A DNA stretch of 44,803 nucleotides, from NCBI GenBank assembly GCA_017435665.1, contig JAFSEP010000031.1:1-44803 (forward strand). Direction: 5' to 3'. A program made the translations under genes and the position numbers. Shown one piece after another: positions 22,355-25,022 of this stretch. Position 1 is the stretch's first letter; each line of letters begins with the position of its first letter. The stretch is from Clostridia bacterium. GTDB taxonomy: Bacteria > Bacillota > Clostridia > Oscillospirales > Acutalibacteraceae. The notes under the pieces were generated by a model. The model ran no database searches. It was given only the letters and a program-made list of their open reading frames with translations, and was not told where the DNA came from.

Positions 22355-22966
22355 TTGCCCAGTCAGAAGGTTTTAGAACAGAAACAGCAAATCGTTGCTG
22401 ACTTAGTAGAAAGACTTAACTCAGCTTGCGCCGGTGTTATCGTCGACTACAGAGGTATCACAGTTGTTGACGACACAAAGCTTCGTAAGGAACTGCGTGA
22501 AGCAGGTGTTGAATACACAGTTGTTAAGAATACTCTCTTAAAGTTAGCTATTGAAAAGACTGAATTAAACGGTCTTGATGCTGTTCTCGAAGGCACAACA
22601 GCTATTGCAACAAGTGCTGATGACTATGTTGCAGCAGCTCGTATTCTCTGCAAGTATGCAGATTCAAACAAGAATTTCACAATCAAAAACGGTTTCCTTG
22701 ATAACGATGTTATCGATGTTGACAAGATCAACGGTCTTGCTAAACTTCCCTCAAGAGAAATCTTACTTGCTAACGTTCTCGGTGCTTTCAATGCTCCCAT
22801 CGCTGCTTTCGCAAGAGCTGTACAGGCTATTGTTGATAAGGGTGGCGTAGAAGCTACTGAAGCTCCCGCTGAAGAAGTAGCAGAAGCTCCGGCTGCTGAA
22901 GAGGCACCGGCAGAAGCTCCGGCAGCTGAAGAAGCAGCACCGGCAACAGAAGAAGCAGCTGAATAA
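22355..22966 (+). CDS. rplJ: 50S ribosomal protein L10 with acidic tail
   Basis: A 203-residue L10, which anchors L7/L12 dimers on the ribosomal stalk. The core (MPSQKVLEQKQQIVADLVER ... GVIVDYRGITV ... YTVVKNTLLKLA) is standard. The start is a TTG at 22355, 9 nt after AGGAGG. The last ~38 residues are almost only Glu, Ala and Pro, beyond the C-terminal helix that binds L12. This lengthens the protein by about 35 residues over the family norm. Confidence 0.97.
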   Translation: MPSQKVLEQKQQIVADLVERLNSACAGVIVDYRGITVVDDTKLRKELREAGVEYTVVKNTLLKLAIEKTELNGLDAVLEGTTAIATSADDYVAAARILCKYADSNKNFTIKNGFLDNDVIDVDKINGLAKLPSREILLANVLGAFNAPIAAFARAVQAIVDKGGVEATEAPAEEVAEAPAAEEAPAEAPAAEEAAPATEEAAE

Positions 22967-23027
22967 TTCAGAACTGCTGAAAAACTAAAATTTAATTTAA
23001 ACGATTTACAATTGGAGGTAAATTATC

Positions 23028-23405
23028 ATGGCATCAGAAAAGATTACTGCTATTATTGAAGAATTAAAGGTTCTCACAGTTCTTGAACTCTCAGAACTCG
23101 TACACGCTGTTGAAGAAGAATTCGGCGTATCAGCTGCAGCAGCAGTTGTAGCAGCTGGCCCCGTTGCAGATGCAGGCGCAGCTGCTGAAGAAAAGACAGA
23201 ATTCGACCTCGAACTCACAGAGGTTGGCGCAGAAAAGATCAAGGTTATCAAGGTTGTTCGTGAAATCACAGGTCTTGGTCTTGCAGATGCTAAGGCAGCT
23301 GTTGACGGCGCTCCCAAGGTACTCAAGGAAGCAATGTCAAAGGAAGATGCAGAAGCTGCAAAGGCAAAGCTCGAAGAAGTTGGCGCAAAGGTTACTCTCA
23401 AGTAA
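23028..23405 (+). CDS. rplL: 50S ribosomal protein L7/L12
   Basis: A 125-residue L7/L12: N-terminal dimer domain, Ala-rich hinge ([20 protein letters not shown]) and C-terminal factor-binding domain ([27 protein letters not shown]). Normal length. In many bacteria rpoB follows; here the hairpin array follows instead. Confidence 0.98.
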
Positions 23406-23426
23406 TTTATTCACATCTGAAACTAT

Positions 23427-23463
23427 GGCGTTGTGTTTGCAAGAACACAACGCCAGTTTTATT
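23427..23463 (+). terminator. Terminator of rplJ-rplL
   Basis: A perfect 11-bp stem GGCGTTGTGTT/AACACAACGCC with a 6-nt loop, then AGTTTTATT. The T-rich stretch is also the first 9-mer of the repeat array. Confidence 0.8.
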
Positions 23464-23626
23464 CGCCTTGCGGCGAGTTTTATAGCTTCGCAGTGTTATT
23501 ATGCGATGCATAGTGTTATTTGCTTCGCAAGTTTTAGTAGCGAATAAAATAACACTGAAACCTGGGTTTCAATATCACTATTGTCTCAAGACAATAATAT
23601 CACTCCGACACCGTCGGAATAACACT
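23455..23626. repeat. Array of 9-bp motifs alternating with small hairpins, inverted at the centre
   Basis: Left half: five 9-mers of the type AGTKTTATT start at 23455 (AGTTTTATT), 23476 (AGTTTTATA), 23492 and 23512 (both AGTGTTATT) and 23530 (AGTTTTAGT). Right half: four reverse-complement types start at 23548 (AATAACACT), 23571 and 23596 (both AATATCACT) and 23618 (AATAACACT). Almost every spacer is its own perfect hairpin with unrelated sequence: CGCC-TTGC-GGCG, ATGC-GAT-GCAT, TGC-TTC-GCA, GAAAC-CTGG-GTTTC, ATTGTC-TCAA-GACAAT, CCGAC-ACC-GTCGG. TTTTATTCGC (23458-23467) also pairs with GCGAATAAAA (23540-23549). The last 9-mer touches the -35 box of the next gene. Confidence 0.85.
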
Positions 23627-23654
23627 TGAAAAAACTTTCTGCTTTCTATATAAT
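23626..23654 (+). promoter_or_regulatory. Promoter of the four-helix-bundle gene
   Basis: TTGAAA (23626-23631), 17 bp, TATAAT (23649-23654). The transcript would start near 23661, so the leader is only about 13 nt and the ribosome-binding site is almost at the 5' end. Confidence 0.75.
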
Positions 23655-23673
23655 TTATATTGAGGTGATATTT

Positions 23674-24030
23674 GTGGCTGACAGTATTTTAAGAGACAAA
23701 GCTAAAGTATTTGCAAAAGAAATTATTTTTCTTTGTCGAGAAATGAAATCTAATCGAAAGGAATCTGTTTTAATAAATCAAATACTCCGTTCTGCGACCT
23801 CAATAGGAGCAAATATACACGAAGCACAATATGCGCAAGGAACTAAAGATTTTATATCGAAATTAGAAATAGCACAAAAAGAGTGTTACGAAACAGAATA
23901 TTGGTTAGAACTGCTTTTTGAAACAGATTGCATAACCGAAGAAAAATATAAGAAGTTACATAACGATTGTGGAGCAATCAGAAGAATGCTGATTGCCTCC
24001 TTAAAAACAGTCAAGTCAAATAAAATGTAA
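23674..24030 (+). CDS. Four-helix-bundle protein (S23/IVP-like family)
   Basis: A 118-residue all-helical protein of the family first seen in 23S rRNA intervening sequences, whose fold is shared with the Avd accessory protein of diversity-generating retroelements. Diagnostic parts are LINQILRSATSIGANIHEAQ, GTKDFISKLEIAQKECYETEYWLELL and the closing RRMLIASLKTVK. A GTG start at 23674 is chosen because TGAGGTGAT lies just upstream; a longer frame starting from a TTG would begin inside the promoter. Family proteins form pentameric barrels with a basic face that may bind nucleic acid. No 23S rRNA and no reverse transcriptase are in this window. The gene is lower in G+C than the ribosomal genes before it and lies against the hairpin array. 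Confidence 0.85.
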   Translation: MADSILRDKAKVFAKEIIFLCREMKSNRKESVLINQILRSATSIGANIHEAQYAQGTKDFISKLEIAQKECYETEYWLELLFETDCITEEKYKKLHNDCGAIRRMLIASLKTVKSNKM

Positions 24031-24057: not shown

Positions 24058-24087
24058 CCATCCTTCGCACTTGGGTACGAAGGATGG
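24058..24087 (+). terminator. Hairpin after the four-helix-bundle gene
   Basis: A perfect 10-bp stem CCATCCTTCG/CGAAGGATGG with a 10-nt loop (CACTTGGGTA). There is no strong T tract, so termination is uncertain. The loop and stem top resemble the hairpin at 25039-25072. Confidence 0.5.
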
Positions 24088-24209: not shown

Positions 24210-25022
24210 ATGAAAAAATCAACTAATTCTATAAAAAGTAATATCTGCAAATATTTATTGATACCGATAATAGTTATTATAGATATCATTATGCTGATTG
24301 TTATAACTCCCTTAACAGACGGGAAAACATACTCTGACCACAAAGGTGTTTATACATATGATGAGTTGTTTTCGTCAAAAACCGAGGGTGCCGATATGAA
24401 AGATATGATATCATTTTCACTTTTTTCCGGAAACATATTGCATCCTGTAAATGCAAATACAATCTTAGATGGTGTAGAATTCGTAACGGTTTCTCATTTA
24501 ATTACACCTGCAATAATGGTTTTGTATAATCCGAACAACGAAATATGTGCTTTAAGCACAAGGAGCAGCGGACCGGTTTTAGATGTGAATGAGGTAAGTG
24601 ATGAGATTGTTTTTGAAATTTCTAAAGCAACAGGTTATGTTGTTTACGGAACATTATTTACCTTTTGTGGCGACATATATATGTTTGCAAATATAAAGGA
24701 TGATACATATGTGTATGATGAAAATTCAACACCTCGGGAAAATGCAGTTAGATCAACTTATAGTTCTCACAGTAAAACCATTGCTTTATTTAAACTTTGT
24801 AATGTGGATGAAAGTTTCATTGAAGAAAATTTTTCGGGGTATAATGCGGGTAGTTATATAAAGTATTATCCGGAGTGGTATGAAGGACTTCAATATTTTT
24901 GGGAATATAGAGTCATAGCCGCCATCTTGTTCATCATTCAGTTCCCGATTGCTTTTAAAATCTATAGTAAAGTAATAACACCAAAAACAGAAAGTAATAA
25001 AAAGAAAAAAGCCAAGAAATAA
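24210..25022 (+). CDS. Unknown protein with two membrane helices
   Basis: A 270-residue protein that I cannot assign to a family. Membrane helices lie at about 13-38 (YLLIPIIVIIDIIMLIVITP) and about 232-253 (AAILFIIQFPIAFKIY). They enclose an extracytoplasmic domain of about 190 residues with mixed beta pattern and several isolated cysteines, and a Lys-rich cytosolic tail closes the protein. The start is ATG 24210 after AAAGGAG. It is AT-rich, driven by a perfect consensus promoter and flanked on both sides by similar hairpins. Confidence 0.7.
   Translation: MKKSTNSIKSNICKYLLIPIIVIIDIIMLIVITPLTDGKTYSDHKGVYTYDELFSSKTEGADMKDMISFSLFSGNILHPVNANTILDGVEFVTVSHLITPAIMVLYNPNNEICALSTRSSGPVLDVNEVSDEIVFEISKATGYVVYGTLFTFCGDIYMFANIKDDTYVYDENSTPRENAVRSTYSSHSKTIALFKLCNVDESFIEENFSGYNAGSYIKYYPEWYEGLQYFWEYRVIAAILFIIQFPIAFKIYSKVITPKTESNKKKKAKK

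Follow-up and report, generated by a model that had tools for sequence, protein, structure and literature searches.

In the passages of the literature drawn on here, intervening sequences (IVS) of 23S rRNA genes in Coxiella and Leptospira carry an open reading frame for an S23p/IVP protein, are called selfish and have heptameric direct repeats 5′ of that ORF (PMC4990558). Each IVS-bearing 23S helix is described there as originally having had a small tetraloop that was replaced by the IVS (PMC4990558), and the IVS site is therefore a hairpin loop. REPINs, in turn, are dispersed palindromic, non-autonomous units with a conserved partner gene, the RAYT (PMC3116915, PMC6006769). The target hairpins of diversity-generating retroelements (DGRs) need their stem structure but not their stem sequence, have a 5′-GRNA loop and act as DNA, and group IIC introns insert at or near terminator hairpins (PMC3240598); IS1397-type insertion is into palindromes, the REP hairpins (PMC1525189). 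A resemblance between PF05635 and Avd has also been remarked on in a paper on DGRs (PMC10053308). Gut-1 was presented in 2010 as a probably noncoding RNA found in the human gut only (PMC2864571).

We analysed a stretch of 44,803 nucleotides (the window), which is contig C16 of a 2.23-Mb draft genome of a Clostridia bacterium in 64 contigs (the own genome). In it, palindromic spacers and nine motif copies sit between rplL and a small gene of the PF05635 family (IVP gene). We consider it likely that array and gene belong to a mobile element of gut Clostridia, of which the window holds one copy: a first hairpin (hairpin 1), an inverted hairpin array, a promoter and the IVP gene, with hairpins as the presumed object of recognition. 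The element looks widespread and looks to be placed after or inside the terminators of other genes. In other copies the IVP gene is followed by cargo in some cases, by a terminator-like hairpin within the element and by a right end like an inverted hairpin 1. In the open-licence literature we found neither such terminator elements described nor Gut-1 linked to PF05635, and no account of hairpin arrays adjacent to PF05635 genes.

Anatomy of the array and its gene

Allowing at most one mismatch, we located five copies in the AGTKTTATT sense (starting at 23455, 23476, 23492, 23512 and 23530, those at 23476 and 23530 with one mismatch) and four AATAWCACT copies (starting at 23548, 23571, 23596 and 23618), a recount that bears out the nine copies given in a preliminary description of this DNA. 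The orientation is inverted, with the left motif first, then its reverse complement, and the IVP gene directly 3′; the array is better seen as inverted halves about a centre, with a 10-bp closing stem (Table 1). The inverted halves and palindromic spacers rule out a CRISPR array, which has direct repeats and unrelated, non-palindromic spacers.

Arrays were scored with a motif-agnostic detector, in which a unit is a 7-mer repeated in either orientation with at most one mismatch over a spacer of 7–26 nt in which there must be a perfect hairpin with a stem of 4 bp or more, and the score is the maximum per 300-bp scoring window. With its nine motif copies and six motif-hairpin-motif units within about 200 bp, the array scored 6. 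Of 1000 dinucleotide shuffles, 421 scored 0, 565 scored 1, 14 scored 2 and none scored higher, and the sole score of at least 3 in the rest of the window came from a coding stretch (22701–23100, motif AGCAGCT). RNA folding of positions 23420–23660 yielded −76.9 kcal/mol versus −47.0 (sd 4.4) for shuffles (z −6.8), and DNA folding of the same interval z −8.1. The array is thus confirmed as real.

Table 1 Features of the element copy in the window
Feature	Position	Strand	Remarks
Hairpin 1, left end of element	23426..23455	+	perfect 12-bp stem, 6-nt loop; in place of rplL terminator
Left array half	23455..23538	+	five AGTKTTATT copies with hairpins between
Closing stem, 5′ strand TTTTATTCGC	23457..23466	+	encloses hairpins of left half
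Closing stem, 3′ strand GCGAATAAAA	23540..23549	+	array centre
Right array half	23548..23626	+	AATAWCACT copies; hairpins 23557–23570, 23580–23595, 23605–23617
Promoter-like TTGAAA-N17-TATAAT of IVP gene	23626..23654	+	read from sequence; TATAAT at 23649–23654
IVP / S23 / four-helix-bundle gene	23674..24030	+	118 aa, GTG start, RBS upstream
Hairpin 3′ of IVP gene	24058..24087	+	possible terminator of element or host

The range of 23455–24030 given earlier begins too late, as the hairpin at 23426–23455 is also part of the element. This hairpin resembles a rplL terminator and was assigned to the element because such hairpins begin relatives in unrelated contexts. The array does end at a −35-like box, as had been described: the final base of the last motif copy (23626) doubles as the first T of TTGAAA, which is separated from TATAAT by 17 nt. 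Promoter-like boxes between array and gene were also seen by eye in several relatives. A right-end search recognised no right end in the window, and no split terminator was seen at this copy. An ORF of 270 aa 3′ of the IVP gene (24210–25022) matched neither Pfam nor NCBIfam at E 0.001 and is possible cargo.

The IVP gene matches PF05635 with 102.3 bits (cut-off 33.8) and TIGR02436 with 111.5 bits (cut-off 24). Its structural model has four helices (pLDDT 94.1) and by Foldseek is most similar to 2rld (TM 0.88) and 2gsc of the S23 family, followed by Avd 4dwl (prob 1.00, TM 0.78, E 0.04) and the DGR RNP 8ube; a sequence search found 2rld and 2gsc as the only structures. The model confirms that IVP and the DGR accessory protein Avd have a fold in common, as had been stated earlier. 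Judged from a median dN/dS of 0.085 over 354 pairs of relatives (dS 0.1–1.2), the protein is under strong purifying selection.

Hairpin arrays beside IVP genes and the Gut-1 RNA family

The own genome has eight PF05635 genes, six of them with an upstream hairpin array and, among these, five different motifs (by eye). A family survey covered 60 genomes, 21 of which have PF05635, and 48 IVP loci including those of the own genome; 21 of the 48 loci scored at least 3 within 700 bp upstream, compared with 17 of 3939 scoring windows more than 3 kb away. The close-relative set comprised the best 80 of 493 relatives of the window protein (from named genomes, some from one assembly), all labelled as Clostridia, Oscillospiraceae, Ruminococcus or Ruminiclostridium MAGs. 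An array (score ≥3) lay within 500 bp upstream in 72 of these 80, versus 34 of 4644 far windows, a control to which 15 of the 80 loci contribute because they have any such window. In a class survey of 196 genomes, 64 with PF05635, the best-scoring loci were taken, of which 29 were new; these and the 48 family loci form a diverse set, in which hairpin arrays, mostly of other motifs, occur at 29 of 77 IVP genes. Inverted repeats of at least 13 nt between the two flanks of the gene were present at 16 of the 77 diverse loci (control 0.4%). The expectation that hairpin arrays accompany this gene family in other gut Clostridia was thus borne out (72/80, 21/48 and 29/77 loci). The detector reported no hairpin array at eight of the 80 close relatives and at 48 of the 77 diverse loci, and many array-negative diverse loci show inverted short-unit arrays by eye (e.g. 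G013:C10, G043:C11). Short-unit arrays of ATTATTCATTATTCAT, AAGAATAAAG and TGCATTGTGCATTG (L007:1001–1060, L005:1845–1950 and L020:4920–4960) are intergenic and also stand beside several IVP genes; they are probably the same phenomenon, with short units replacing hairpins.

The 9-mer of the preliminary description is present in the window but is not universal: motifs differ by IVP lineage and are common only to close lineages. Motif distance correlated with IVP protein distance (Mantel r 0.35, p 2e-4, 29 loci), and motifs were common only to pairs below 30% protein distance (mean 1.0 versus 2.4–2.9). The correlation rests on close relatives, and co-inheritance would give it too.

The consensus of Gut-1 (RF01706), CAAUGAAAU-hairpin-GUGAAAU-hairpin-GUGAAAU-hairpin-UGAAAU, equals one half of such an array. 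The window array, with its left half aligned, reaches 33.5 bits, which is below the 50-bit gathering score; two other arrays of the own genome, on C13 and C11, pass it (61.3 and 56.5 bits). Gut-1 matches (E ≤0.001) were found in 17 of 21 genomes with IVP and in 6 of 39 without (Fisher p 9e-7). Arrays are therefore enriched with the gene family and not equally frequent in genomes lacking it, and the association postulated in the preliminary description was not refuted. Among genomes at least 90% complete the numbers were 13 of 16 and 3 of 32, the latter with one match each, and four of the 21 genomes with IVP had no Gut-1 match. Up to 32 matches per genome stand beside a single IVP match (G030), where one array may yield two matches. 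From these match numbers and from the array copies read, many arrays lack an IVP gene. The passages of the 2010 account that describe Gut-1 mention no other half, no IVP gene and no mobility (PMC2864571). An orphan RNA family is thereby explained as half of a larger element.

Genomic sites and probable mobility

That array and gene behave as a mobile unit, as had been suggested, is supported by many unrelated sites, by unoccupied sites and by IVP-less copies. Only one of the 80 close relatives (L144) has the rplL site in common with the window; by blastn, 74 upstream flanks including that of the window fell into 69 clusters, and 68 downstream flanks into 65. The left and right ends recur precisely in unrelated contexts, i.e. 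the same unit is found at several sites. The array of the window was present at none of the 26 readable rplL sites among 33 other genomes of the same genus, and most of these sites have plain terminators (by eye); the detector scored 3 at one of the 26 (L188), with an unrelated 7-mer. A second copy in the own genome (C11:6986) lies between AAAAAGGGAGTC and GACTCCCTTTT, and the detector found a hairpin array at none of 23 readable orthologous sites (L362 was too short and left out). At the orthologous sites of L269 in the same genus, seven of ten look like an intact terminator with T-tract (by eye), L331 carries a different array, and L332 and L335 have no clear terminator; detector scores of at least 3 were obtained at two of the ten, L331 (array) and L338 (short-unit array). 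In an empty-site search for L112, matches were obtained in 37 of 79 relatives, and three of these matches covered most of the query: L277 and L278, which have the look of plain terminators, and L276, which has not.

A tRNA gene is present within 700 bp upstream, with the nearest such gene on the same strand, at 27 of the 48 family loci and at 7 of the 80 named ones, and at least 12 kinds of tRNA are represented; some copies stand behind a tRNA terminator and on its strand (terminators judged by eye). A subset of copies lies inside the stem-loop of an intrinsic terminator, with the 5′ arm on one side and the 3′ arm and T-tract on the other. The left flank contains an A-run of at least 5 at 36 of 71 named loci with a recognised hairpin 1 (control 5.6%), which we read as the probable start of the terminator arm. 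The complementary 3′ arm with T-tract follows about 120–1900 bp 3′ of the IVP gene. Over 67 loci, arms of at least 12 nt were found at 12 (0.06 expected) and of at least 11 nt at 15 (0.29 expected), with a modest excess at 8 nt (26 versus 14 expected); a strong split terminator is present in only about a quarter of the loci tested. TCCTT(A/T) occurs within 45 nt before the 3′ arm at 15 of 19 loci with arms of at least 10 nt (control 3.5%) and is absent before the arm in L102, L104, L114 and L153. Similarity of the right end to hairpin 1 in reverse complement (best match at least 15/22) was found at 20 of 69 loci versus 7 of 69 in the control, a weak signal alone.

Two IVP-less copies in G003 are 94.6% identical over 351 bp and occupy different sites, one of them clearly in a split terminator. 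In G030, 16 of the 17 array copies printed draw on common hairpin modules in different combinations; several copies in this genome (L236–L255) stand directly after stop codons, and its single PF05635 match spans 62 of 106 positions and is a possible fragment. Intact terminators, short-unit arrays, promoter-like boxes and the common modules of G030 were counted by eye.

Further observations concern single loci. Five elements (L094, L097, L098, L100 and L102) have a second, mutually similar ORF (..FKIENIFQM.KK.YCPVC..) 3′ of the IVP gene (by eye), likely a cargo gene. In L003 (own contig C8) the IVP unit is flanked by two similar terminators (~1262–1303 and 2268–2308) that have the tip TTTTGTCTA in common, as though one had arisen from the other by duplication. 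Half arrays of the own genome (L257, L261, L265 and L266, on C53, C24, C63 and C29) adjoin a purine-rich, RBS-like block on the opposite strand and possibly affect the expression of an oppositely transcribed gene.

The defined ends, the IVP-less copies and the multiple sites would also suit ordinary MITEs that depend on a DNA transposon with its transposase encoded elsewhere and carry the IVP gene as no more than a frequent passenger, and arrays outnumber IVP genes in several genomes. No mobility enzyme, neither transposase nor reverse transcriptase, was recognised in the element. The own draft genome and G003 yielded no match to RVT_1 (PF00078) or Y1_Tnp (PF01797), and for the own genome another enzyme would therefore be needed. 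We nevertheless hold the MITE account to be unlikely, as Gut-1 matches track the presence of IVP while the two enzyme families compared do not (reverse transcriptase in 5/21 genomes with and 8/39 without IVP, Y1_Tnp in 10/21 and 14/39), as the passenger itself is under strong purifying selection, and as no consistent target-site duplication, a lack that also counts against the mobile element proposed here, was found over 15 of 19 loci (L100 and L119 have 4-nt repeats, most of the others none). A resident reverse transcriptase or Y1 transposase was rejected as the mover on the same two counts, no association with IVP and no match in the own genome.

Hairpin form, proposed recognition and comparison with known systems

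Hairpin conservation was analysed in an alignment (A2) of 45 sequences; besides the window it contains 44 of the 72 further loci for which hairpin 1 had been recognised. RNAalifold predicted 41 pairs, and in 15 of them both partners have changed in one or more sequences. The three right-half hairpins covary among the 45 relatives, with, for example, GC in 32 and AU in 13 sequences at columns 148–163 and GC in 22 and CG in 20 at columns 112–119; in the closing stem (columns 36–138: UA 41, CG 3, AU 1) pairing is kept through two-sided changes in 4 of 45. Since stems vary and pairing is retained, the hairpin shape is kept while the stem sequence changes. The preliminary description, which had stressed that spacer hairpins are unrelated in sequence, holds within one array and not between close relatives, whose hairpins stay in register with compensatory changes; the hairpins are therefore inherited and maintained rather than newly made for each copy. 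Hairpin 1 is not within the RNAalifold structure and occurs in several unrelated versions, beginning with GGCGTTGT, TGCGAGACTTC, TGCCGAGTG or TGCCCAACTT. Between motif copies (37 of 45 rows), the innermost pair, left copy 4 with right copy 1, clearly covaries (0.72, 0 of 500 permutations as good), and covariation is weaker for left copies 4 and 3 with right copy 4 and for left 3 with right 1. A full fold-back of left onto right motifs was rejected because in these rows the innermost pair alone covaries clearly, and most motif copies were treated as linkers.

Loops follow the orientation of the motif. Among right-half sense loops C(GAA)G ranks first and C(AAA)G second, and C(GCAA)G, C(GTAA)G and C(GCA)G are also frequent; the commonest left-half loops, C(TGC)G, C(TTC)G, C(TTGC)G and C(TTAC)G, are reverse complements of GN(N)A loops. 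Loops of the xGNNAx type were counted in sense at 45 of 183 right-half hairpins, versus 2 in antisense and 43 of 2216 control hairpins, and in the left half at 4 of 139 in sense versus 40 in antisense. GN(N)A-type loops are unusually stable in DNA, and the GCGAAGC mini-hairpin is an extraordinarily stable DNA hairpin. The stems are near-perfect and free to vary in sequence, as they would be if slippage or template switching at quasi-palindromes had simply converted terminators into perfect hairpins, with neither element nor selection involved. We regard such a conversion artefact as hardly credible, because the ends are precise and common to unrelated contexts, the IVP gene lies inside, relatives have unoccupied sites, and loops are tied to motif orientation.

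When the count of G-T and A-C pairs in the stems is split by half, it follows motif orientation. In stem cores, with the three outermost pairs left out, the G-T:A-C ratio is 25:2 in the left half, 11:6 in hairpin 1 and 17:25 in the right half, compared with 47:29 in terminator-like hairpins and 28:0 in tRNA acceptor stems as controls. The left-half skew is as expected of RNA, although some of these may be motif pairs, and would fit an array that is a cis-regulatory RNA leader, in which IVP binds hairpins of the transcript and controls its own expression or stability, any mobility being incidental or due to other elements. The strong RNA folding, the two-sided changes in 15 of the 41 predicted pairs, the location directly upstream of the gene at hairpin-type loci and the publication of Gut-1 as a probable RNA (in the passages cited, PMC2864571) agree with such a leader. 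However, the promoter-like boxes (by eye) lie downstream of the array, so that the main transcript would start past it; some arrays have no gene, and some are turned the other way round (by eye); and neither hairpin 1 nor the right half shows the G-T excess of tRNA acceptor stems. We consider an RNA leader distinctly unlikely. Selection on RNA only was likewise rejected, as hairpin 1 and right-half cores are balanced for G-T versus A-C and the left half alone is skewed. Because of the loops, we lean towards hairpins that act as DNA rather than RNA.

For the mobile element we propose that an IVP oligomer would recognise the array hairpins together with the adjacent motif, the bound form probably being DNA hairpins that have C(GN(N)A)G loops and are either extruded or single-stranded. 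IVP would then bring the element to other hairpins, those of terminators, where strand transfer would fall either to a host enzyme or to an activity as yet unrecognised. Insertion into a terminator would spare coding sequence and leave the IVP gene downstream of active operons, and a lineage-specific motif could keep each IVP protein matched to its own arrays. For annotation, some operon-end hairpins in gut Clostridia would be parts of elements and not host terminators.

More tentatively, and with some doubt on our part, PF05635 could comprise the proteins by which hairpins are recognised in a large, as yet unnamed class of hairpin-homing mobile elements, a class that covers the terminator elements, classical IVS and a DGR branch. 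DNA hairpins would be recognised by a GN(N)A loop and a lineage-specific flanking motif, and elements would be guided into hairpin loops, namely terminators in gut Clostridia and 23S rRNA helices in the case of IVS; the branch joined by a reverse transcriptase would have come to act on DGR target hairpins. If true, a single system would show itself in three forms, as Gut-1 RNA, as IVS and as DGR-Avd. The mobile-element reading itself proposes a setting for a protein family without known function and hints at what Avd-type proteins may recognise, and the spread of 23S rRNA intervening sequences becomes testable in a many-copy system.

Like REPINs, the arrays are dispersed, palindromic, non-autonomous units with a conserved partner gene. 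RAYTs are Y1/HUH transposases, whereas the partner here is a four-helix bundle of the Avd fold in a genome without PF01797. Insertion at or near hairpins, of terminators or REPs, is common to the present elements, group IIC introns and IS1397, but the window has no Rfam intron match and no transposase was recognised in the element. For the P. gingivalis BrickBuilt MITE, no link to S23 or four-helix proteins was found in the passages describing it. As in DGR target hairpins, stems in the arrays are variable and loops often of the GN(N)A type, and the IVP fold is the Avd fold; the system is not a DGR, because the own genome has no reverse transcriptase match. The closest known kind are the 23S rRNA IVS, which have the protein family PF05635 in common with the present elements and enter loops of rRNA helices, where a subset of the present elements enters terminator loops; the inverted repeats that enclose 16 of the 77 diverse IVP genes are a further point of likeness. 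The window copy follows rplL and is not within 23S rRNA, and Rfam gathering matches in the window are tRNAs and the L10 leader only. Unlike IVS, the present elements are intergenic, in terminators or behind tRNA operons, and possess a hairpin-punctuated inverted array, promoter-like boxes of their own, sometimes cargo, and dispersed IVP-less copies.
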